From positions 1 through 33,544 of the forward strand of contig REBV01000190.1 of assembly GCA_007692545.1 (NCBI GenBank): a stretch of 33,544 nt of DNA. The letters run 5' to 3'. The notes under the pieces were generated by a model. That model was not told the origin of the DNA and searched no databases. It saw nothing but the letters and a program-made list of their open reading frames with translations. Positions within the stretch are counted from its first letter, which is position 1; each line of letters begins with the position of its first letter. Shown piece by piece: positions 19,901 through 30,742 of the stretch. The stretch is from Puniceicoccaceae bacterium. GTDB taxonomy: Bacteria; Verrucomicrobiota; Verrucomicrobiia; Opitutales; Coraliomargaritaceae. The position numbers were made by a program, and so were the translations under genes.

Positions 19901-20923
19901 TCACCCAAAAACCGCCCGCCGCAGCTTGTTGACCACCGCCAAATCACCCCAGGCTGCCCCCCGCGCCGTTTTGCCCTCAGCTGGTCGACACCCACGCCCC
20001 GCCTCCCACTGCGCCGCATAGCGCCGCACAAAATCGGCGGACCCAAGAACCACTCCATCCGTAAAATACCGCACCCGGCACCGCAACACCACGGATAGCG
20101 GCAACTCCCCCTTCTGCTCATTCAGCACCTTCTCCGCCGCCTTGCGGTCAATCAGCTTCCCTTTATGTGTCCAAGGCGATGCCCCCTTGCCAAAAATCAA
20201 ACTCCGGTGCGCCGACAGAGCCGACTTCAGGCTCGCCGCCTCCCCTCGCCGCTTCGAACCATTCGCGTAAGTCGACCAAATCACCTCCAGCCCCCGCTGC
20301 GCCTTCTGATTGCCCGCCACCGCTTCCGCGTAGCCGCACCAGCGGTAGTCCTTCGGGTCTTCCACCAGCCCCGCACGCACCGGATTCAAATCGATATAAG
20401 CCGCCATGGTTTGCAAAGGATTGCCTTCGCCCTGCACCAACACACTCTTAAACCGGTCCATCCACAAAGTCCCCAGCCGATTGTTATGATTGCGATTATA
20501 CCAGATGGAAAAGCGCTGCTTCAGCGTCTTCATAAATTCAGAAAGGTCATGCATCCGCGCCAGCAATTGCGCTCGGACCTTCTCAGCATCCTCCGTCCCC
20601 TCACGCAGAGCCGTTTCCAAGCGGGCAAACGAAGCCGTCTGATATTTCGTCGGCTTCGGGTAGAGCACCTTAAAGCGCCGCAGCAGTTCCGCATCCGAAA
20701 CAGCCCGATCCTTCTCCGGCACCCGCACCAAAACATGAAAGTGGTTCGTCATTATGGAGTAAGTCAGCACCTCCACCCCACAAAAGTCCGCCACCTGCCA
20801 AAGCATCCTACGAAGCACTTCCTTCTCACGCTTCCCCAACAGCATCTCTCCACCCACCACGCGACTCATTGCATGGTGGATAACTGCCGACTCGGCACAT
20901 TTCATTCTGCGTATACGTCTCAT
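19901..20923 (-). CDS. REP-associated tyrosine transposase (Y1_Tnp/IS200-like), long form
   Basis: 'VEVLTYSIMTNHFHVLVRVPE' HUH motif and 'MAAYIDLNPVRAGLVEDPKDYRWCGYAEA'. Confidence 0.88.
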   Translation of the reverse strand: MRRIRRMKCAESAVIHHAMSRVVGGEMLLGKREKEVLRRMLWQVADFCGVEVLTYSIMTNHFHVLVRVPEKDRAVSDAELLRRFKVLYPKPTKYQTASFARLETALREGTEDAEKVRAQLLARMHDLSEFMKTLKQRFSIWYNRNHNNRLGTLWMDRFKSVLVQGEGNPLQTMAAYIDLNPVRAGLVEDPKDYRWCGYAEAVAGNQKAQRGLEVIWSTYANGSKRRGEAASLKSALSAHRSLIFGKGASPWTHKGKLIDRKAAEKVLNEQKGELPLSVVLRCRVRYFTDGVVLGSADFVRRYAAQWEAGRGCRPAEGKTARGAAWGDLAVVNKLRRAVFG

Positions 20924-21026: not shown

Positions 21027-21039
21027 CCCTGAGGTAAAA

Positions 21040-21097
21040 GTAGCTCACGCTTCCAGCGTGTCGCGGAGTTGTTAGACACGCTGGAAGCGTGCACTAC
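21040..21097. repeat. REPIN A: GTAGCTCACGCTTCCAGCGTGT ... ACACGCTGGAAGCGTGCACTAC
   Basis: Left unit 21040-21061, right inverted unit 21076-21097. Confidence 0.9.
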
Positions 21098-21440
21098 TTT
21101 GGGCTAATCAACGACGACGAAATCAAAGGGGTCATTCCGTATGTTTCGATATTTTTGGGGGCGGGCAGCAAAATCGGGTCATGCCGGAATGGCGCTAACT
21201 TAAGAATAAATCGCGAAGTTAGGGCTGACTGGGATGGTTTGCTTCAGCTACCCTTTAAAGGTTTTAGTTACTGAAGTTCCGACACTTACTACCAATCGGC
21301 AGCTAAAGCAGCCGTTCCCAGTATAAGTCCCAAACAGCCTAAGTGAGCACCATTCGGGTCTGCCCAATGTTTGCTTCGCCTCAGATTCACTTTGCTCCCC
21401 AACCCGGCGGCGGGAATCAGAAGCCTCTCCTGAGGTAAAA

Positions 21441-21498
21441 GTAGCTCACACTTCCAGCGTGTCGCGGAGTTATTGAACACGCTGGAAGCGTGCACTAC
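21441..21498. repeat. REPIN B, near-identical to REPIN A
   Basis: Left unit 21441-21462 (one substitution, CACACTTCC), right unit 21477-21498. Confidence 0.9.
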
Positions 21499-21659
21499 TT
21501 TGGGGAAAGAAAAGATTGAGCGAAAACAGTCTTCCAAAACCATTTTACTGGATACGGCCATCGCAAGAAGGCGAAGCGGGCCAATGGGGAATATAAACAT
21601 TCACGAAAGGCTCTCGCCCCACCGCAAAGCCCTGCGGCGAATCTCCGACCCCCATCCCC

Positions 21660-21857
21660 TTACCGGGGGAGATGACGATCGATCTCGTTGAGCACACTTA
21701 TGCAGTGAGTCAGATCTTCGTTTTCAGGCAACCAGGGCAGGTTGTCCATGAACTCTTCTTCACGGGTGATCATGGCTTCGACGAAACGCCTGCCCGCCCC
21801 GGTCAAAGCGACCAACGAGGATCGTTTGTGCCCGGGGTTGGGCCGGAGGTCTATTGA
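21660..21857 (-). pseudogene. C-terminal remnant of a MarR-family regulator
   Basis: 'SIDLRPNPGHKRSSLVALTGAGRRFVEAMITREEEFMDNLPWLPENEDLTHCISVLNEIDRHLPR*' resembles the MarR wing and C-terminal helices; no helix-turn-helix upstream. Confidence 0.5.
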
Positions 21858-21871
21858 CAACTCTATTGTCA
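21855..21871. promoter_or_regulatory. Palindrome TGACAA-CTCTA-TTGTCA, candidate MarR-type operator upstream of the acyltransferase/ligase gene
   Basis: Perfect 6-bp arms with 5-bp spacer, 30 bp upstream of ATG 21901. Confidence 0.35.
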
Positions 21872-21900
21872 TCATAAAAGTCGCGAAAACCACACAACTC

Positions 21901-24900
21901 ATGACAACTAATATCCGACTTCCAAAGACCTTCTGGTGGCATAATTTCGCGCAGTTCGGCGGTGCCTTAAACGACAACCTCTTCAAGCTTCTGATGATTT
22001 ATGCGCTCATCAGTTGGCAGGGCCCGGAGGCGGCGGCCGGGGTCCTGGCCACGGTGGGGATGACCTTCGCGCTGCCTTTTCTCCTCTTCCTGCCGGTGGC
22101 CGGTGGTCTGGCTGACTACTTTAGCAAACAGCGGCTGATCCGTGTGCTCAAGGTGGCGGAGCTGGCAATCATGAGCTTTGGCATTGTCGGCTTCTTCCAG
22201 CAGAGCAGTGGCATGCTCTACATCACAATGTTTTTGATGGCGACCCAGAGTGCCTTCTTTGGTCCCTGCAAATATGGCATCCTGCCCGAGCAAGTGGGTA
22301 ACGAGCGTCTTTCCCGCGCCAACGGTTCCATTCAGCTCTTCACCTTCCTGGCCATCATCGCCGGCACCATGCTGGCGCCGGAGCTGAGCCTCTTACTTGA
22401 GCAAAATTACGGTCAGGCCGCCTGCGTCAGCCTGATCATTTCGGGTCTCGGCATCGCCGCCGCCTTTCGCATCGCGCCCACTCCCAGTTACCGCGCCACC
22501 ACCCGACTACAGCTGAATGGCTTCAAAAATCTGGCTTCTGCCTTCAGGTTCATCCGCAAGGACGGCTTTCTTATTCTGACGATCTGTGCCCTGGGGCTTT
22601 TCGGTCTGATCGGTGCGTTTATTCAGCTCAACCTGATCGACTACGGCTACCAACACCTCGACCTACTGCACGAGCAAGCCACCCGGCTGTTTCTGCTAGC
22701 TGCTCTCGGCATTGGGGCGGGGGCCAGCCTGGCTGGTTGGTTTAGCGGGCGCTCGATCGAATTTGGCATCGTGCCAGTGGGGGCCGCCTTGATGACGCTG
22801 GGCATGGGGGGTCTGGCTTGGATCGATGCCGGCAACATCCCGGCCGCCTCGCTCTACGTGGCAGTGCTCGGCCTCGGAGCGGGTCTGTTCGTCGTGCCAC
22901 TGGAAGCCTTTCTGCAATTCCGCAGCCCGTCGAAACAGCTTGGTGCGATCCAGGCCGCCGGCTCCTTTTGCAGTTGGATGGGCATCCTGCTGGCCAGCGG
23001 CCTACTCTTTCTGTTTTCCGCTGTGCTCGATCTGTCGGCCCGGCATGGCTTCATGATTATAGCACTGCTGCTCGCGGTGCTGACGCTGCTGAGCCTGCGC
23101 GTGCTACCCGACTTTTTCGCCAAGTTTGTGGTGATGCTCGTCACCCGGGCTTGTTACCGTTTGCGCGTGCGGGGCCTGGAAAACATCCCGACAGATGGAG
23201 GTGGCCTGCTGGTGAGCAATCATGTCAGTCTGATGGATGCGGTCCTGATCGCCGCCTCCATGCAACGCCGCCCCCGGATGCTGATGTCACGGGACTTCTA
23301 CGAAAAATCGTCCTGGCTAATACGCAAGTGCTGCTACCTCGCCAATGTGATCCTCATCCACAGTGGCGACAACCCGAAGAAGCTCATCCGCTCCCTCCAA
23401 TCTGCCCGCGAAGCGATGGACGCCGGCTTCCTGGTTTGCATTTTTGCTGAGGGTGCCCTCAGCCGTAGCGGCATGATGCGCCCCTTCCGTCCCGGGCTGG
23501 AGCGGATCGTCAAAAACAGCAGCTACCCGATCATTCCGATCTACATCGGCGGCGCCTGGGGCAGCCTCGCCAGCTACCGCAACGGGATGCCCCGCATCCG
23601 TCCACTCAGGGAGCTCCGCTACCCCGTCTCCGTCGATTTTGGAACGGCCCTACCCACCGAGAGCTCAGTCTTCCAAGTGCAACAAGCGGTGACCGAACTC
23701 TCCGTCCAAGCCTTCGACGCCCTCAAGGCGGGACGGGAGAGCCTGGGGCGGGCTTGGGTGCGTTCTGCCCGCTGCCACTGGAGCCATCTCGCCATTACCG
23801 ATTCCACCAGCAAGAACCTGAGCTTTGGCGAGGCCTTGATCGCCTCGCGCCTGCTGCAAAAAATACTCCGTCAGAGCATCGATCCGGCGGAGAAGCACAT
23901 TGGCGTCCTCCTCCCCACCGGTGCCGCCGCCATGCTCACCAACCTCGCCCTCTGCCTCGACCGGCGGGTGGCCATCAATCTGAATCATACCACGCCCAGC
24001 GAAATCTTCCAAGCCGCCCTCAGAATCGCGGAAATAAAGACCGTCGTCACCGCCCGGGCCTTTACCGAAAAGTTCCCCGAGATTCCACTGCCGCCCCAGG
24101 TGCTGTATCTGGAAGATCTGCTGGTCCGACCAACTGGACTGGACGCACTCAAGCAATGGGCAGTGGCCAAATTTGCTCCTGTCTCAGTACTGTATCCAGA
24201 TTATGGATTCGTGGCAGACGACCTTGCCACGGTTTTATTTTCCTCCGGATCCACCGCTGAGCCCAAGGGCGTCATGCTCAGCCACCACAACCTGCTCTCC
24301 AACATCGAGTCCTTTCGTAGCGTCCTCTCCCCTCACCGGGACGATGTCATGCTGGCCACGCTGCCGCTCTTTCATTCGTTCGGCTACACGGCCACTTTCT
24401 GGTTTCCGCTGCTCTCCGGCATGACCACCGCCTGCCACACCAACCCCCTCGAGCCCCAGCCAATCGGTGCCCTCGCCGCCCGCACCCGGGCCACCATTCT
24501 TTTAACCACCCCCAGTTTCCTGCTCGCCTATGCCCGCAAGATTCAGCCTGAGCAATTTGCCAAGCTGCGCTACGTCTTCGCCGGCGCCGAGAAGCTCCAG
24601 CCACGCGTCGCCGATCTTTTTGCCAAACGCTTCGGCGTGCGACCACTCGAGGGCTATGGTGCCACTGAGCTCTCCCCCGTGTGCGCACTCAGCCTGCCCG
24701 ACATCGAAGTGGGCGACCTGGCCGAAGCCGGCAGCCGCCCCGACCGCCTCGGCCGGGTCCTGCCGGGCATGGCGATCCGTATCAAAGACCCCGAAACCGG
24801 CAAAATCCTCTCCGCAGGAGACGAGGGCCTGATCGAGATTAAGGGGCCGAATGTCATGCTTGGCTACCTCGGGCGCGAGGAACTGACCAAGGAAGTGCTG

Positions 24901-25290
24901 CAGGACGGCTGGTATGCCACTGGCGACATCGGCCACATGGACAGCGACGGCTTTTTTGCGATCACCGACCGACTCTCCCGTTTCAGTAAAATCGGCGGAG
25001 AGATGGTTTCCCATGGTGCCGTCGAACAGGCGCTGCAACAATCCCTCGGCCTGGGGCCCACGGACCTGGCCGTGGTGGCCGTGCCCGACCCTCAAAAAGG
25101 CGAGCGCCTCTGCGTCCTGCACAAGACCCTGCCGATCGACAAAAGCACCCTCCCCGAGCACCTGGGAGCACTCCCCATATCCAACCTCTGGAAGCCCAAA
25201 CCCGGCAACTGGATCGAAGTCGATGAACTCCCCTACTTGGCCAGCGGCAAAGCCGACTTTCGCGCGATGAAGGACCTGGCGATAAAGTAG
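21901..25290 (+). CDS. aas: Tripartite MFS (LplT-like) / PlsC acyltransferase / acyl-ACP synthetase (Aas-like); ORF opens at 21742
   Basis: 'FWWHNFAQFGGALNDNLFKLLMIY' MFS; 'GGGLLVSNHVSLMDAVLIA' and 'FAEGALSRSG' PlsC; 'VLFSSGSTAEPKGVMLSHHNLLSNI' and 'DGWYATGDIGHMD' AMP-binding. Confidence 0.93.
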   Translation: MTTNIRLPKTFWWHNFAQFGGALNDNLFKLLMIYALISWQGPEAAAGVLATVGMTFALPFLLFLPVAGGLADYFSKQRLIRVLKVAELAIMSFGIVGFFQQSSGMLYITMFLMATQSAFFGPCKYGILPEQVGNERLSRANGSIQLFTFLAIIAGTMLAPELSLLLEQNYGQAACVSLIISGLGIAAAFRIAPTPSYRATTRLQLNGFKNLASAFRFIRKDGFLILTICALGLFGLIGAFIQLNLIDYGYQHLDLLHEQATRLFLLAALGIGAGASLAGWFSGRSIEFGIVPVGAALMTLGMGGLAWIDAGNIPAASLYVAVLGLGAGLFVVPLEAFLQFRSPSKQLGAIQAAGSFCSWMGILLASGLLFLFSAVLDLSARHGFMIIALLLAVLTLLSLRVLPDFFAKFVVMLVTRACYRLRVRGLENIPTDGGGLLVSNHVSLMDAVLIAASMQRRPRMLMSRDFYEKSSWLIRKCCYLANVILIHSGDNPKKLIRSLQSAREAMDAGFLVCIFAEGALSRSGMMRPFRPGLERIVKNSSYPIIPIYIGGAWGSLASYRNGMPRIRPLRELRYPVSVDFGTALPTESSVFQVQQAVTELSVQAFDALKAGRESLGRAWVRSARCHWSHLAITDSTSKNLSFGEALIASRLLQKILRQSIDPAEKHIGVLLPTGAAAMLTNLALCLDRRVAINLNHTTPSEIFQAALRIAEIKTVVTARAFTEKFPEIPLPPQVLYLEDLLVRPTGLDALKQWAVAKFAPVSVLYPDYGFVADDLATVLFSSGSTAEPKGVMLSHHNLLSNIESFRSVLSPHRDDVMLATLPLFHSFGYTATFWFPLLSGMTTACHTNPLEPQPIGALAARTRATILLTTPSFLLAYARKIQPEQFAKLRYVFAGAEKLQPRVADLFAKRFGVRPLEGYGATELSPVCALSLPDIEVGDLAEAGSRPDRLGRVLPGMAIRIKDPETGKILSAGDEGLIEIKGPNVMLGYLGREELTKEVLQDGWYATGDIGHMDSDGFFAITDRLSRFSKIGGEMVSHGAVEQALQQSLGLGPTDLAVVAVPDPQKGERLCVLHKTLPIDKSTLPEHLGALPISNLWKPKPGNWIEVDELPYLASGKADFRAMKDLAIK

Positions 25291-25375
25291 CTCACGCTTC
25301 CAGCGTGTTTAACAATGTAGCTCACGCTTCCAGCGTGTCCCAACTCGCAATCGACACGCTGGAAGCGTGCACTAC
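25287..25375. repeat. REPIN C with two left units and one right unit
   Basis: Left units 25287-25308 and 25317-25338, right unit 25354-25375. Confidence 0.92.
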
Positions 25376-25458
25376 TTTTTTACTTTCGACAAAAAGTCCG
25401 GCCTACAAGGATGGAAAAACGACTTGTGCCACGGGGCAAAGGCTTTCAATTTTAAACC

Positions 25459-27036
25459 ATGCTTTTTCTTCTGCTGGGAGGTATTGGGTTATTCTTATTG
25501 GGCATGATTCTCCTGACGGATGGGTTGAAGTCCTTTGCCGGTGATTCTTTGCGCTTGGCTTTGTTGCGCTTTACCGGCCGTCCGGTGACGGCCTTTTGCT
25601 CGGGGGCAACCGTGACGGCGATGGTGCAGTCCTCCAGCGCCACCACCCTGGCCACGATTGGCTTTGTCAGTGCCGGGTTGATCACCTTCCCCCAAGCCAT
25701 TGGAGTGATCATCGGGGCGAGCCTTGGCACCACCAGCACAGGCTGGATTGTCTCCACCGTCGGGCTGAAATTCAGTGTCGGGATGCTGGCGCTGCCGCTG
25801 ACCGGGATCGGTGCCTTTATGCGCCTGCTGGGGCGTGGGCGCATGGCCTCGCTGGGACTGGCTCTGGCCGGGTTCGGTTTGATTTTCATTGGGATCGACA
25901 CCTTGCAGGAGGGCATGCGCGCGTTTTCTGAGAGGTTTGATCTGGGGCGGATCCCGGCCAGCGGGTTCTGGGGGCACTTGCTTTTGCTGCTGGTGGGCGC
26001 GGCGATGACCGTGGTGATGCAGAGTTCAAGTGCGGCCGTGGCCACTACCTTGGCCGCACTGCACACGGGGGCCATTGGTTTCGAGCAGGCTGCATCGCTG
26101 GTTATCGGTCAGGCGATCGGAACCACGGTGACCGCCATGCTGGCAGCGATCGGTGCCACCGTTGCCGCGAAACGAACGGCGGTGGCGCATGTGCTCTTCA
26201 ACCTGCTTACCGGATTGATCGCTTTGCTCCTGCTGCCATTCTTTCTCTGGATGATTGTGGGCTTGTCGGAACGGACGGGGACAGAGCCGGGAGCGGTTGC
26301 CTTGGCCGCATTCCATACCAGTTTCATTGCCTTGGGCGTGCTCATCTTTCTGCCTCTGGTAAAGCCCTTCTCCAGACTGGTCGAAAAGATCGTCCCAGAG
26401 CGAGGGTCGAGCCTGACACAGTATTTGGACGCCTCGCTCAACACCCTACCCTCAGTCGCATTGGAGGCGGTGCGAAATTGCTTGCGGGAGGTGTCGCTAC
26501 TGGAGTGTCGGCGCCTAATCCTGATCCTGCAGCATAAGGGGAGAGAACGCTGGGAGTCTGACCGGGTGATTACCGCAGATGCGGTCAATCGTGCCCGCAT
26601 CTTCCTCAGTCGGGTTCCCATGGCGCCGGGTGAAGAAGAGAGCAGCGGCCCCCGGGTCTCGCTCTTTCACCTGCTCGACCACATCGGCAGTTGGATGGCG
26701 CTGCAGATTCCGCTAACTCCCCGCCCCGATATCCAGCAGGACCCACTCTACCAAGAGTTGATAGGCAAGGTAATCGAAACCCTTCATCAGGGAGAGTCCG
26801 TGCTGGCGGAGAATGGGCGCGGCGAATCCGTAGCGGCGCTGCAAACGCTGGCGGAATCGGTCAAGGACCTGCGGCAAAATGCCCGACAAGAAATCCTGGA
26901 TGCGCTTTCCCGCAAGCAGCGGATTCCAGAGGCCAGCATGCAACTTCTCGATTATCTACGCATGCTGGACTCCGCCACCTATCACCTCAGCCGGATCGTG
27001 CATTACCTCAACCAAACCGAATTCAGTGAAAAATAA
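25459..27036 (+). CDS. Na/Pi cotransporter family protein with PhoU-like C-terminus
   Basis: 'GGIGLFLLGMILLTDGLKSFAGDSLR', two 'MVQSSSATT'/'VMQSSSAAV' repeats typical of Na/Pi cotransporters. Confidence 0.92.
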   Translation: MLFLLLGGIGLFLLGMILLTDGLKSFAGDSLRLALLRFTGRPVTAFCSGATVTAMVQSSSATTLATIGFVSAGLITFPQAIGVIIGASLGTTSTGWIVSTVGLKFSVGMLALPLTGIGAFMRLLGRGRMASLGLALAGFGLIFIGIDTLQEGMRAFSERFDLGRIPASGFWGHLLLLLVGAAMTVVMQSSSAAVATTLAALHTGAIGFEQAASLVIGQAIGTTVTAMLAAIGATVAAKRTAVAHVLFNLLTGLIALLLLPFFLWMIVGLSERTGTEPGAVALAAFHTSFIALGVLIFLPLVKPFSRLVEKIVPERGSSLTQYLDASLNTLPSVALEAVRNCLREVSLLECRRLILILQHKGRERWESDRVITADAVNRARIFLSRVPMAPGEEESSGPRVSLFHLLDHIGSWMALQIPLTPRPDIQQDPLYQELIGKVIETLHQGESVLAENGRGESVAALQTLAESVKDLRQNARQEILDALSRKQRIPEASMQLLDYLRMLDSATYHLSRIVHYLNQTEFSEK

Positions 27037-27055
27037 ATCACCCTCCCGAGCCAAA

Positions 27056-27142
27056 GTAGCTCACGCTTCCAGCGTGTTTAAGAATGAACTCACGCTTCCA
27101 GTATGTCCGACAACAATACGACACGCTGGAAGCGTGTGCTAC
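27056..27142. repeat. REPIN D with one full left unit, one GTAG-less left unit and one right unit
   Basis: Left unit 27056-27077; GTAG-less unit around 27085-27106; right unit 27121-27142 (ends GTGTGCTAC). Confidence 0.88.
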
Positions 27143-27220
27143 TTTATAAATGAAAATCTGAAGCGTAAAAAAACTCTACCTTGCCTCGACAACCTCCGGA
27201 TCTTATTTTCACAGCATTTC

Positions 27221-27946
27221 ATGTCTAACTCGCCTACAAACAAAGTAGCTCACGCTTCCAGCGTGTCCCCACAACAAACTCACGCTTCCAGCGTGTCCCA
27301 ACCCACCACCGACACGCTGGAAGCGTGCACTACTTTTTTTAATCCGCATGCGCCGATCCAATCCAGCCAGCGCAACCTACCGCATTGGTATCAGGACGGA
27401 GTGGCCTATTTTGCGACTTTCCGCCTAGCGGATTCCATTCCCCGGCAAAAGCTCAAACAATGGCACGCCGAGCGCGAACACTGGCAGAAAGCAAACCCGG
27501 AACCACTCTCCAACAAACAACACAGTGAATACGCCGAACGCTTTCCCGAACGATTTCAAAAATGGCTGGATGCCGGAGGGGGTGCCTGCGTGCTCCGCAA
27601 CCCTGCATGCGGGCAAATCGTTGCCGACGCTATGCGCTTTTTCGATAACCAGCGCTATCACCTCGACGCATGGGTCATCATGCCCAACCACGTCCATGTT
27701 ATTTTCCAGGCGATACCACCCCATGCGCCCAAAGAAATTCTGCATACATGGAAGTCCTATACCGCCAACAAAATCAATCAACTCCTGAAGCGATCCGGTG
27801 CACTCTGGCAGCGGGAGGCCTACGATCACATCATCCGATCCCCCGCCCAACTGCATCACTATCGGAACTACATAGCACAAAATCCAGTCAAAGCCCGTAT
27901 CACCGTCACCCACATTAAAGTAGTTCACCCTTCCGAACCAAAGTAG
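27221..27946 (+). CDS. REP-associated tyrosine transposase (Y1_Tnp), short form; track ORF opens at 26879, true start uncertain
   Basis: 'NLPHWYQDGVAYFATFRLADSIP', 'HLDAWVIMPNHVHVIFQ' HUH motif, 'LWQREAYDHIIRSPAQLHHYRNYIAQNPVKARI'. Confidence 0.85.
   Translation: MSNSPTNKVAHASSVSPQQTHASSVSQPTTDTLEACTTFFNPHAPIQSSQRNLPHWYQDGVAYFATFRLADSIPRQKLKQWHAEREHWQKANPEPLSNKQHSEYAERFPERFQKWLDAGGGACVLRNPACGQIVADAMRFFDNQRYHLDAWVIMPNHVHVIFQAIPPHAPKEILHTWKSYTANKINQLLKRSGALWQREAYDHIIRSPAQLHHYRNYIAQNPVKARITVTHIKVVHPSEPK
27245..27333. repeat. REPIN E, lying inside the RAYT open frame
   Basis: Left unit 27245-27266, GTAG-less left unit around 27277-27297, right unit 27312-27333. Confidence 0.9.
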
Positions 27947-28090
27947 CTCACGCTTCCAGCGTGTTTAACTACAAACTCACGCTTCCAGCGTGTCCGACAA
28001 AGTAGCTCACGCTTCCAGCGTGTCCGACAATGTAGCTCACGCTTCCAGCGTGTCCCAACCCACCACCGACACGCTGGAAGCGTGTGCTAC
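27943..28090. repeat. REPIN F1: four left units in ~30-bp tandem and one right unit
   Basis: Left units at 27943, ~27972 (GTAG-less), 28002 and 28032; right unit 28069-28090; degenerate extra unit at 27920. Confidence 0.9.
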
Positions 28091-28126
28091 TTTATTTCCA
28101 TCATGGGCGTGTCCGACAACTCGGCG

Positions 28127-28148
28127 ACACGCTGGAAGCGTGCACTAC
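28127..28148. repeat. REPIN F2 right unit abutting the clpB 3' end, with only a partial left unit
   Basis: ACACGCTGGAAGCGTGCACTAC at 28127-28148; preceding GGCGTGTCCGACAACTCGGCG looks like a decayed left unit. Confidence 0.8.
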
Positions 28149-30742
28149 TTTATTTCCATCGTCAGTGCATCGTCGACGAGTTTAAATAAAACGACGCTTT
28201 GTTCGGCGATTTCGCCGCTGAGGAGGGCGCGGGCCAGCTTGGTCTCGACTTGTTTTTGCAGGAAGCGCTTGAGTGGTCGGGCACCGTAGACCGGATCGTA
28301 GCCTTTCTCGCCGATCCAGATGCGGGCGGCGTCTTCGAACTCGATGCTGATGCGGCGGTCGGCCAGACGCTGGTTCAGATCGACCAGGAGCAGATCCACG
28401 ATTCGCGTAATCTCATCCAGAGTCAGCGGCTTAAAGAGCACTGTGTCATCGATCCGATTGAGGAACTCGGGGCGGAAGCCCTGGCGTAACTCGCTCATGA
28501 CCGATTCGCGGACCGATTCAGGTATCTCCGAGCCGGATACGCCCTCCGTTAAATAACGACTGCCGACATTGGAAGTCATGATTATAACGGTGTTTTTGAA
28601 ATCCACCGTCCTGCCCTGTGCATCGGTGATGCGGCCGTCGTCCATGACTTGCAGCAGCACGTTGAAAACATCGGGGTGGGCCTTTTCAATTTCGTCGAAA
28701 AGCACTACGCTGTAAGGCTTACGCCGCACCGCTTCGGTCAGCTGACCACCTTCGTCGTAGCCGACGTATCCGGGAGGCGCTCCGATCAGGCGAGCCACCG
28801 CGTGCTTTTCCATGTATTCGGACATATCAATCCGCACAATATTATCCTCGGTATCGAAGAGTGTCTGCGCCAGGGTGCGGGCCAGCTCCGTCTTCCCCAC
28901 CCCGGTGGGCCCGAGAAAGAGAAAGCTACCGATGGGCCGACGTGGGTCCTTGATCCCGGCGCGGGCACGCAGGATGGCCTCGGAAACAAGCACCACGGCT
29001 TCATCCTGGCCGACCACGCGCTCGTGCAATACTTCTTCCAGTCGGAGCAGTTTCTCCTTTTCCCCTTCAACCAGGCGGGTCACGGGCACACCGGTCCACT
29101 TGGAGACGATTTCGGCGATCTCCTCCTGCGACACCTCTTCCTTGAGCAGGGCTCCTTCCTTGGCTTCGACTGCTTCGAGTTGTTTGAGCCGAGCCTCCAG
29201 CTCTGGCATCTTGCCATGGCGCAGCTGGGCGACTGTATTCAAATCGTAATTACGCTCAGCCTTTTCCATCTCGATGCGGGTGGCATCGAGCTCTTCACGG
29301 ACCTGCCGAATCTGATCGATCGCGCCCTTTTCGGCGTCCCACTGACTACGGAACACCGTTTCTTTCTCACGGATATCGGCCAGTTCTTTGGAAAGTGTCT
29401 TGAGGCGCTCCTTTGAGGCCGCATCCTTTTCGTTTTTCAGCGCGGCTTCTTCGATTTCGAGCTGGAGGGCGCGGCGAGATAGTTCGTCCAGCTCCTGCGG
29501 CATGGAGTCCATTTCGGTGCGAATCATGGCACAGGCCTCATCGACCAGGTCGATCGCCTTGTCAGGCAGGAAACGGTCGCTAATGTAGCGATGCGAGAGC
29601 ACGGCGGCTTGCACCAGAGCATTATCCTGAATGCGCACCCCGTGATGGAGTTCGAAGCGTTCCCGGATACCGCGTAGAATGGAGATGGTGTCTTCGACGT
29701 TGGGCTGATCGACTTGCACCGTTTGGAAGCGGCGCTCCAGGGCAGCATCCTTTTCGATGTATTTCCGATATTCGTCGAGCGTGGTCGCCCCGACACAGTG
29801 AAGCTCACCCCGGGCCAGCATCGGCTTGAGCATATTGCCCGCGTCCATCGCACCTTCGGACTTACCCGCACCCACGATGGTGTGCAACTCATCGATAAAA
29901 AGGAGAATGCGACCGTCGCTGTTTTTCACTTCGGCCAAGACGGCCTTGAGGCGCTCTTCGAACTCGCCCCGGTATTTGGCGCCGGCCACCAGCGAGCCCA
30001 TATCGAGCGCGAAGATGGTCTTGTCTTTGAGGCCTTCCGGCACATCGCCCCGCACAATGCGCTGGGCCAGACCTTCTACTATGGCGGTCTTGCCCACCCC
30101 GGGCTCACCGATGAGCACCGGGTTGTTCTTGGTCTTGCGCGATAGGATACGAATGACCCGCCGGATCTCCGAGTCCCGCCCGATGACGGGGTCCATCTTG
30201 CCCTTGCGGGCCATGGCCACCAGGTCGATGCCATACTTTTCCAAAGCCTCAAAAGTCGCCTCCGGATTGCGCGATGTCACCTTCTGGCCCGCCCGGGCCG
30301 ATTCGATGGCTGCCAGCACTTTCTTGGAATCGAGCTCAAACTGATCGAAAAATTTGCCCAACTTGCCCGCAGGCTCCGCCTCAAGCAGGCCCAGCAACAG
30401 ATGCTCCGTGCTGACAAAGTCATCACCCAGCGTGCTCTTAGCCTTGTCGGCCTCAGTCAGGGCTTTTTGCAGAGCCGTCGAGATGTAAACCTGACTGGCA
30501 TTGACGCTACCGCTGGCCTTCGGCAGCGCATCCAGCTCGCGCTTGGCGGCCAACTCCAAGGCAGCTGGTGATAGCTGCATGCGCTCCAAGAGCCCTGGCA
30601 CAATACCGCCCTCTTGCCGCAGCAAGGCCAAGAGTAAATGCCAGACACCAATTTCAGAATGCCCCTGCTGACGCGCTAAATTTTGCGCTTCCTGCACAGC
30701 GAAGGCAGACTTTTCAGTAAAACTATTAAAATCAATATTCAT
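28145..30742 (-). CDS. clpB: ClpB chaperone ATPase; ORF opens at 30778, [11 protein letters not shown] is the likely start
   Basis: '[32 protein letters not shown]', '[26 protein letters not shown]', ClpB middle domain and Clp N-terminal repeats. Confidence 0.97.

Follow-up and report, generated by a model that had tools for sequence, protein, structure and literature searches.

Pseudomonas and Escherichia coli carry REPINs together with RAYTs (REPtrons), and the repeats described here resemble them in four respects: the GTAG foot, the hairpin, the arrangement in facing pairs and a RAYT flanked by the same repeats. They differ from REPtrons in their low copy number (33, in an incomplete metagenome-assembled genome, MAG) and in that the RAYT clade concerned also nests inside host genes. 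REPIN families usually exceed 100 copies per genome, and RAYTs are usually described as single, domesticated and vertically inherited genes, the persistence of which is puzzling. The locus was found in a stretch of 33,544 nucleotides from a Puniceicoccaceae bacterium, referred to here as the window.

REP units and RAYT genes of the window

At up to three mismatches, the window contains 18 copies of the REP word GTAGNNCACGCTTCCAGCGTG (15 of them exact), and 100 shuffles contained none. All window copies lie in six loci spanning 21037 to 28151, which bears out the facing GTAG hairpin units reported at six loci by the initial annotation. REPIN A (21037..21100) consists of a left unit at 21040-21060 (GTAGCT) and a right unit on the minus strand at 21077-21097 (GTAGTG). 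REPIN B (21438..21501; left unit 21441-21461 with one mismatch, right unit 21478-21498) is a 90% copy of A including its flank; since the identity extends over an 87-nt segment with flanking bases common to both, the two look like a single local duplication of that segment. In REP array C (25284..25379) two left units (25287-25307 and 25317-25337) face a right unit at 25355-25375, and in REPIN D (27053..27145) a left unit (27056-27076), a degenerate unit (about 27086-27106) and a right unit (27122-27142, GTAGCA) follow one another. REPIN E (27242..27336) has a left unit at 27245-27265, a footless one at 27275-27295 and a right unit at 27313-27333. REP array F (27917..28151) comprises left units at 27943, 28002 and 28032, a footless unit at 27972, right units at 28070-28090 (GTAGCA) and 28128-28148 (GTAGTG), and a degenerate unit within the 3′ end of the second RAYT gene. 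Several loci, such as C and F, are thus arrays of direct units and not simple pairs; the GTAG foot has been lost in two units (27275 and 27972), and a 102-nt unit is repeated at 25280, 27238 and 27995. The two free bases between GTAG and stem are also found in the GTAG-1 and GTAG-2 families (PMC3733652). An Rfam search of the region gave no match.

The left and right ends had been said to differ consistently, and inside the window they do: all nine left units that kept their GTAG read GTAGCT, while the seven right units read GTAGTG (five) or GTAGCA (two). Outside the window, three exact facing pairs were found, two of which (CT/TG on contig C121 and CA/CT on C314) keep the asymmetry while the third (TG/CG on C273) does not, so that it is common, not absolute.

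Genome-wide, 33 matches to the REP word were counted at up to two mismatches (3.19 Mb on 321 contigs, 92.6% complete), against none for a reversed control pattern. Seventeen of these lie outside the window on 12 contigs, and 11 of the 12 outside loci examined for it are in no long open frame. The stretch from 21037 to 28151 is therefore a dense cluster with about half of all genome copies, and the earlier statement that the family is confined to 7 kb is contradicted. A tandemly copied segment without any mobile REPIN family would account for the likeness of A and B and for the 102-nt unit, and local duplication does hold for parts of the cluster, but as a full explanation it is refuted by the 17 copies on 12 other contigs, some of them facing pairs in unrelated surroundings. 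The test proposed with the initial annotation, that the word might not be over-represented elsewhere or might be unpaired, was run and left the REPIN reading standing. The repeats are thus supported as a REPIN family, which is a known kind of element.

The REP word was not found in the same-genus and same-family genomes searched; elsewhere in the order it was present in three genomes (G066, G083 and G133) of one other family, f24. Contamination as the source of the window was considered and rejected: its acyltransferase is 61-62% identical to that of same-genus genomes and 36-47% to that of f24, so the contig fits the family of its own genome. This acyltransferase gene (21742-25290) matches the acyl-ACP-phospholipid acyltransferase profile PRK08633 up to position 1142 of 1147, and its TAG stop (25288-25290) is supplied by the GTAG of array C. 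In the same way, the TAG stop of the second RAYT gene (27944-27946) sits in the GTAG of array F. Stop codons supplied by the GTAG of REPs have already been described (PMC3733652).

Two RAYT genes had been noted close to the repeats, and both carry a Y1_Tnp domain. RAYT1 (19901..20923, minus strand, 340 aa) has a Pfam Y1_Tnp match of E 8e-11 and the motifs NHFH and YIDLNP. That RAYT1 serves the repeats was not supported: it is of another type, about a dozen other Y1_Tnp ORFs of RAYT1 type (300-370 aa) occur on many contigs of this genome, and the published listing gives no REPs for the classes that have its HUH and tyrosine motifs (PMC6006769). RAYT1 is thus probably not their partner, and of the earlier proposal of a REPIN family mobilised by RAYTs nearby, the facing pairs, the GTAG foot and the hairpin stand, with the dispersed copies as further support, while the role of RAYT1 and the 7-kb confinement fall away.

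RAYT2 (about 27221..27946, plus strand; Y1_Tnp Pfam E 1.5e-8) has a conserved core starting at about 27365 and is flanked by its REPs, with D and E upstream and F downstream. Its score against the NCBIfam model REP_Tyr_transpos is 78.2 bits, about 2 bits under the cut-off of 80, a curated naming threshold. The E. coli TnpAREP structure 4er8 was the best match both in a profile comparison (1.4e-7) and in a Foldseek search with the RAYT2 model. Across 28 sequences P-N-H-V-H and Y217 are invariant, and the Pfam Y1 match is above cut-off. Judging from these features, RAYT2 is likely the cognate transposase of the REPs that flank it, and its clade looks like TnpAREP subclass 2.4, or RAYT group 4. 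The conserved core begins just past the right unit of REPIN E, and the only in-frame ATG near the RAYT2 start (27221) lies upstream of that REPIN; for these reasons the N-terminus of RAYT2 is probably encoded by REPIN E, provided that translation begins at 27221. An AlphaFold model of RAYT2 has a confident core, and the repeat-encoded part is predicted to be disordered (pLDDT below 50 for residues 6-54).

RAYT genes inside host genes

A search with RAYT2 returned homologs within very long open frames. This genome holds three members of the RAYT2 type. On contig C193 the RAYT clearly lies in frame within an Eco57I-type methylase gene (a frame of 1640 codons), and on C79 it probably lies in frame within a SNF2-like helicase gene of 1212 codons, a host named from reading the sequence and not from Pfam. 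The C193 locus carries a different REP family. Elsewhere in the order, the hosts were MmeI-type and type I restriction enzymes, a creatininase and, with the RAYT at its end, MoaE. One of the MmeI-type genes (L109, in genome G095, contig C154) has two further in-frame REP insertions, which are missing at the matching place in L108 (G005, C299); L108 has its RAYT at the same host site as L109, with a frameshift. The creatininase gene with a nested RAYT is found in G325, a single-contig genome of 4.2 Mb. An evenly drawn set of 88 matches from the same order had about 11 in frames of at least 440 aa.

GTDB genomes were scanned with the RAYT2 alignment, and the best 80 loci, from many phyla, were kept. 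A RAYT was called nested when one open frame held its core together with over 150 residues on the N-terminal side or over 120 on the C-terminal side. A long open frame surrounds the RAYT in 52 of these 80 loci, a figure that describes a similarity-ranked sample and is not a rate, and that entails an open frame by definition. In at least 41 of the 52, by our own count, the same host gene lies on both sides; among the remaining nested loci some are at contig ends and some resemble terminal fusions. Hosts of the 52 were named by clustering and Pfam: sixteen are Eco57I-type methylases, seven HsdR, five LeuRS (plus one uncertain) and five CarB, followed by CCA/polyA polymerase (three) and by PriA, MmeI, adenosine deaminase and dehydrogenase-oxidoreductase (two each). 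Exonuclease VII, menaquinone biosynthesis, SNF2, NUDIX, radical SAM, decarboxylase and one unnamed host occur once each. L166 was left out of the leuS claim for its poor match to LeuRS. In L150 (G286, C2) the methylase frame stops shortly past the nested RAYT, and this may be a decaying copy. A plasmid search gave one distant free copy, annotated as a transposase. Ten of 28 free copies were checked with Pfam for out-of-frame interruption of a gene, and eight of them had named genes on both sides; these were always two different genes, and a split gene around the RAYT was seen in none of the eight.

The insertions can be compared with empty sites, which for leuS pinpoint the insertion exactly. 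For CarB, the E. coli protein matches up to position 482 and the alignment picks up again at 487, after an insert of 242 residues; for LeuRS, the Thermus thermophilus protein matches up to 364 and again from 377, with 216 residues in between. In an alignment of LeuRS, eight occupied proteins stand against seven without insert, all at one place, and one of the empty relatives shares 79-84% identity with the occupied L204. The leuS that bears the RAYT is, in five genomes, the sole full-strength match to PF13603 (the editing domain), the others being weak and of Ile/Val type, and carB is single copy in four of the five genomes in which it has a nested RAYT; because most loci are MAG contigs, "only copy" refers to what an incomplete assembly contains. 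The fused proteins score above the equivalog cut-offs for leuS and carB. An AlphaFold model of a LeuRS-RAYT fusion, run with five sequences, had a mean pLDDT of 46, too poor for use.

Borders, selection and alternative readings

Of 47 nested loci, 29 have borders that match each other in inverted orientation over 12 nt or more, compared to 2.2% of mismatched pairs, and when direct matches are included the number rises to 38 of 47 by our own count; an obvious shared border repeat was absent in the other 9 of 47. In the leuS of L182, for example, the left arm is GGAGCGCGGGCGTCCCGCCCGT and the right flank contains its reverse complement. No ATG, GTG or TTG occurs within 45 codons before the core in 16 of the 52 nested loci, and with no start codon nearby the transposase at such loci is probably made only via the host protein. 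Where computable, dN/dS of nested RAYTs is 0.07-0.29, though most pairs have dS values close to saturation; the creatininase pair, which is unsaturated (dS 0.30), gives 0.13. Nested RAYTs are under purifying selection.

In a tree of 92 RAYTs the host labels cluster (32 changes versus 57 when shuffled), and strongly supported branches force at least four label changes for Eco57I, three for LeuRS and three for HsdR. Independent entry into the same host site is likely on this evidence, though not proven, because label changes may be gains or losses. The nested RAYTs of the Eco57I hosts L105, L149, L177 and L213 are 72-77% identical, with hosts down to 43%, hinting at RAYT transfer between homologous Eco57I sites. 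Recurrent use of a site may reflect a target sequence, prior REPs or the places where a host survives.

The explanation that we propose starts from GTAG-footed hairpins in facing pairs, which would spread through the genome by copying, with RAYT2 as the most likely agent, by analogy with RAYT biology. Members of the RAYT2 clade often reside as in-frame inserts in unrelated protein genes: the unit of repeat, RAYT and repeat adds about 200-240 residues without a stop, in the frame of the host and at a place that the host protein would tolerate. The repeat-encoded parts would probably serve as flexible linkers, and the transposase would then be produced as a domain of the host protein. The RAYT2 of the window is a free intergenic form, with a frame that begins by passing through a REPIN and closes at the TAG of a REP. 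In short, we consider it probable (roughly three chances in four) that we are dealing with a mobile element whose insertions keep the frame, so that host proteins carry it as an extra domain, comparable to an intein without splicing. Direct support comes from the frame, the border repeats, the empty sites, the conserved catalytic residues and the recurrence at the same site in separate RAYT lineages. We infer from this that the fusion is produced as a protein, that host enzymes function while carrying it and that the RAYT has kept its activity.

Domestication, by which the host enzyme would have taken on the RAYT domain for some benefit of its own, would fit the strong purifying selection, the intact HUH and tyrosine residues and the recurrence of the same host and site across phyla. 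It is nonetheless unlikely: the hosts are a disparate set, close relatives manage without the insert, separate RAYT lineages at one site suggest invasion over inheritance, and among Eco57I hosts the RAYTs can reach a higher identity (74%) than the hosts themselves (43%). Still less probable is that the insert is removed or skipped through RNA splicing, protein splicing or a ribosome bypass that uses the facing hairpins. The long facing hairpins on either side and the tolerance of the insert by essential enzymes could be read in this way, but neither RNA-level removal nor a bypass would require the insert to stay an open frame, as it has done, and the Pfam scan of nested proteins found no intein (Hint) splicing domain. 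That the nested frames are assembly or binning chimeras formed at repeats is very improbable: many loci are indeed MAG contigs and REPs, as repeats, can mislead assemblers, but the same junctions turn up in genomes that are not related (one site is shared by eight LeuRS), the RAYT is enclosed in frame by a single host gene at 41 loci or more, and the nested arrangement is also present in the single-contig G325 and in L163, from a Dolichospermum sp. record that is not titled as a MAG.

A stronger form of the in-frame insertion reading is put forward tentatively, at somewhat less than even odds: the RAYT clade would be a protein-level parasite of essential and defence genes, which enters the same permissive sites again and again, in frame every time, is produced solely as part of host proteins and forms a non-splicing counterpart of homing inteins. 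If so, imprecise loss of the insert would harm the host and the element would be stabilised.

Relation to known systems

The residence of a RAYT clade in frame in leuS, carB, priA or restriction genes would give a direct answer to the question of how RAYTs persist and spread, and nesting predicts enzymes bearing a transposase domain, which can be tested. The annotation of RAYT-bearing essential genes calls for care. Filters that drop long fused transposases would have hidden a class of mobile element; unexpectedly long proteins were discarded as fusions or annotation errors in the classification of TnpAREP proteins (PMC6006769).

REPINs, RAYTs, TAG stops derived from REPs and in-frame REPs in genes and in tnpAREP are already known (PMC3733652, PMC6006769). 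With TnpAREP subclass 2.4, or RAYT group 4, the present clade shares motifs of the NHVH, WQ and YIxxNP type and a core of about 190 residues, and REPs in frame within tnpAREP have been reported for that subclass, as for REPIN E in RAYT2 if the start is at 27221; unlike the present loci, what was reported are REPs inside tnpAREP, not tnpAREP inside host genes (PMC6006769). No description of complete RAYT genes nested in frame in essential or defence genes was found in the open literature. The intragenic GTAG REPs of Opitutus terrae and the Rickettsia palindromic elements are similar in being in-frame palindromes in protein genes, including those for DNA repair, but they comprise 20-80 codons, whereas here a complete transposase gene is carried (PMC3733652, PMC10969869).

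A further parallel, in another class of element, is offered by the loci described above when they are set beside inteins. Inteins with homing endonucleases place a mobile nuclease in frame in essential proteins and recur at the same site. The nested RAYTs differ from them in that no splicing domain was found, in that an HUH tyrosine transposase takes the place of the homing endonuclease, and in their REP borders. We read the nested RAYTs as an alternative way of life within a transposase family that is already known.
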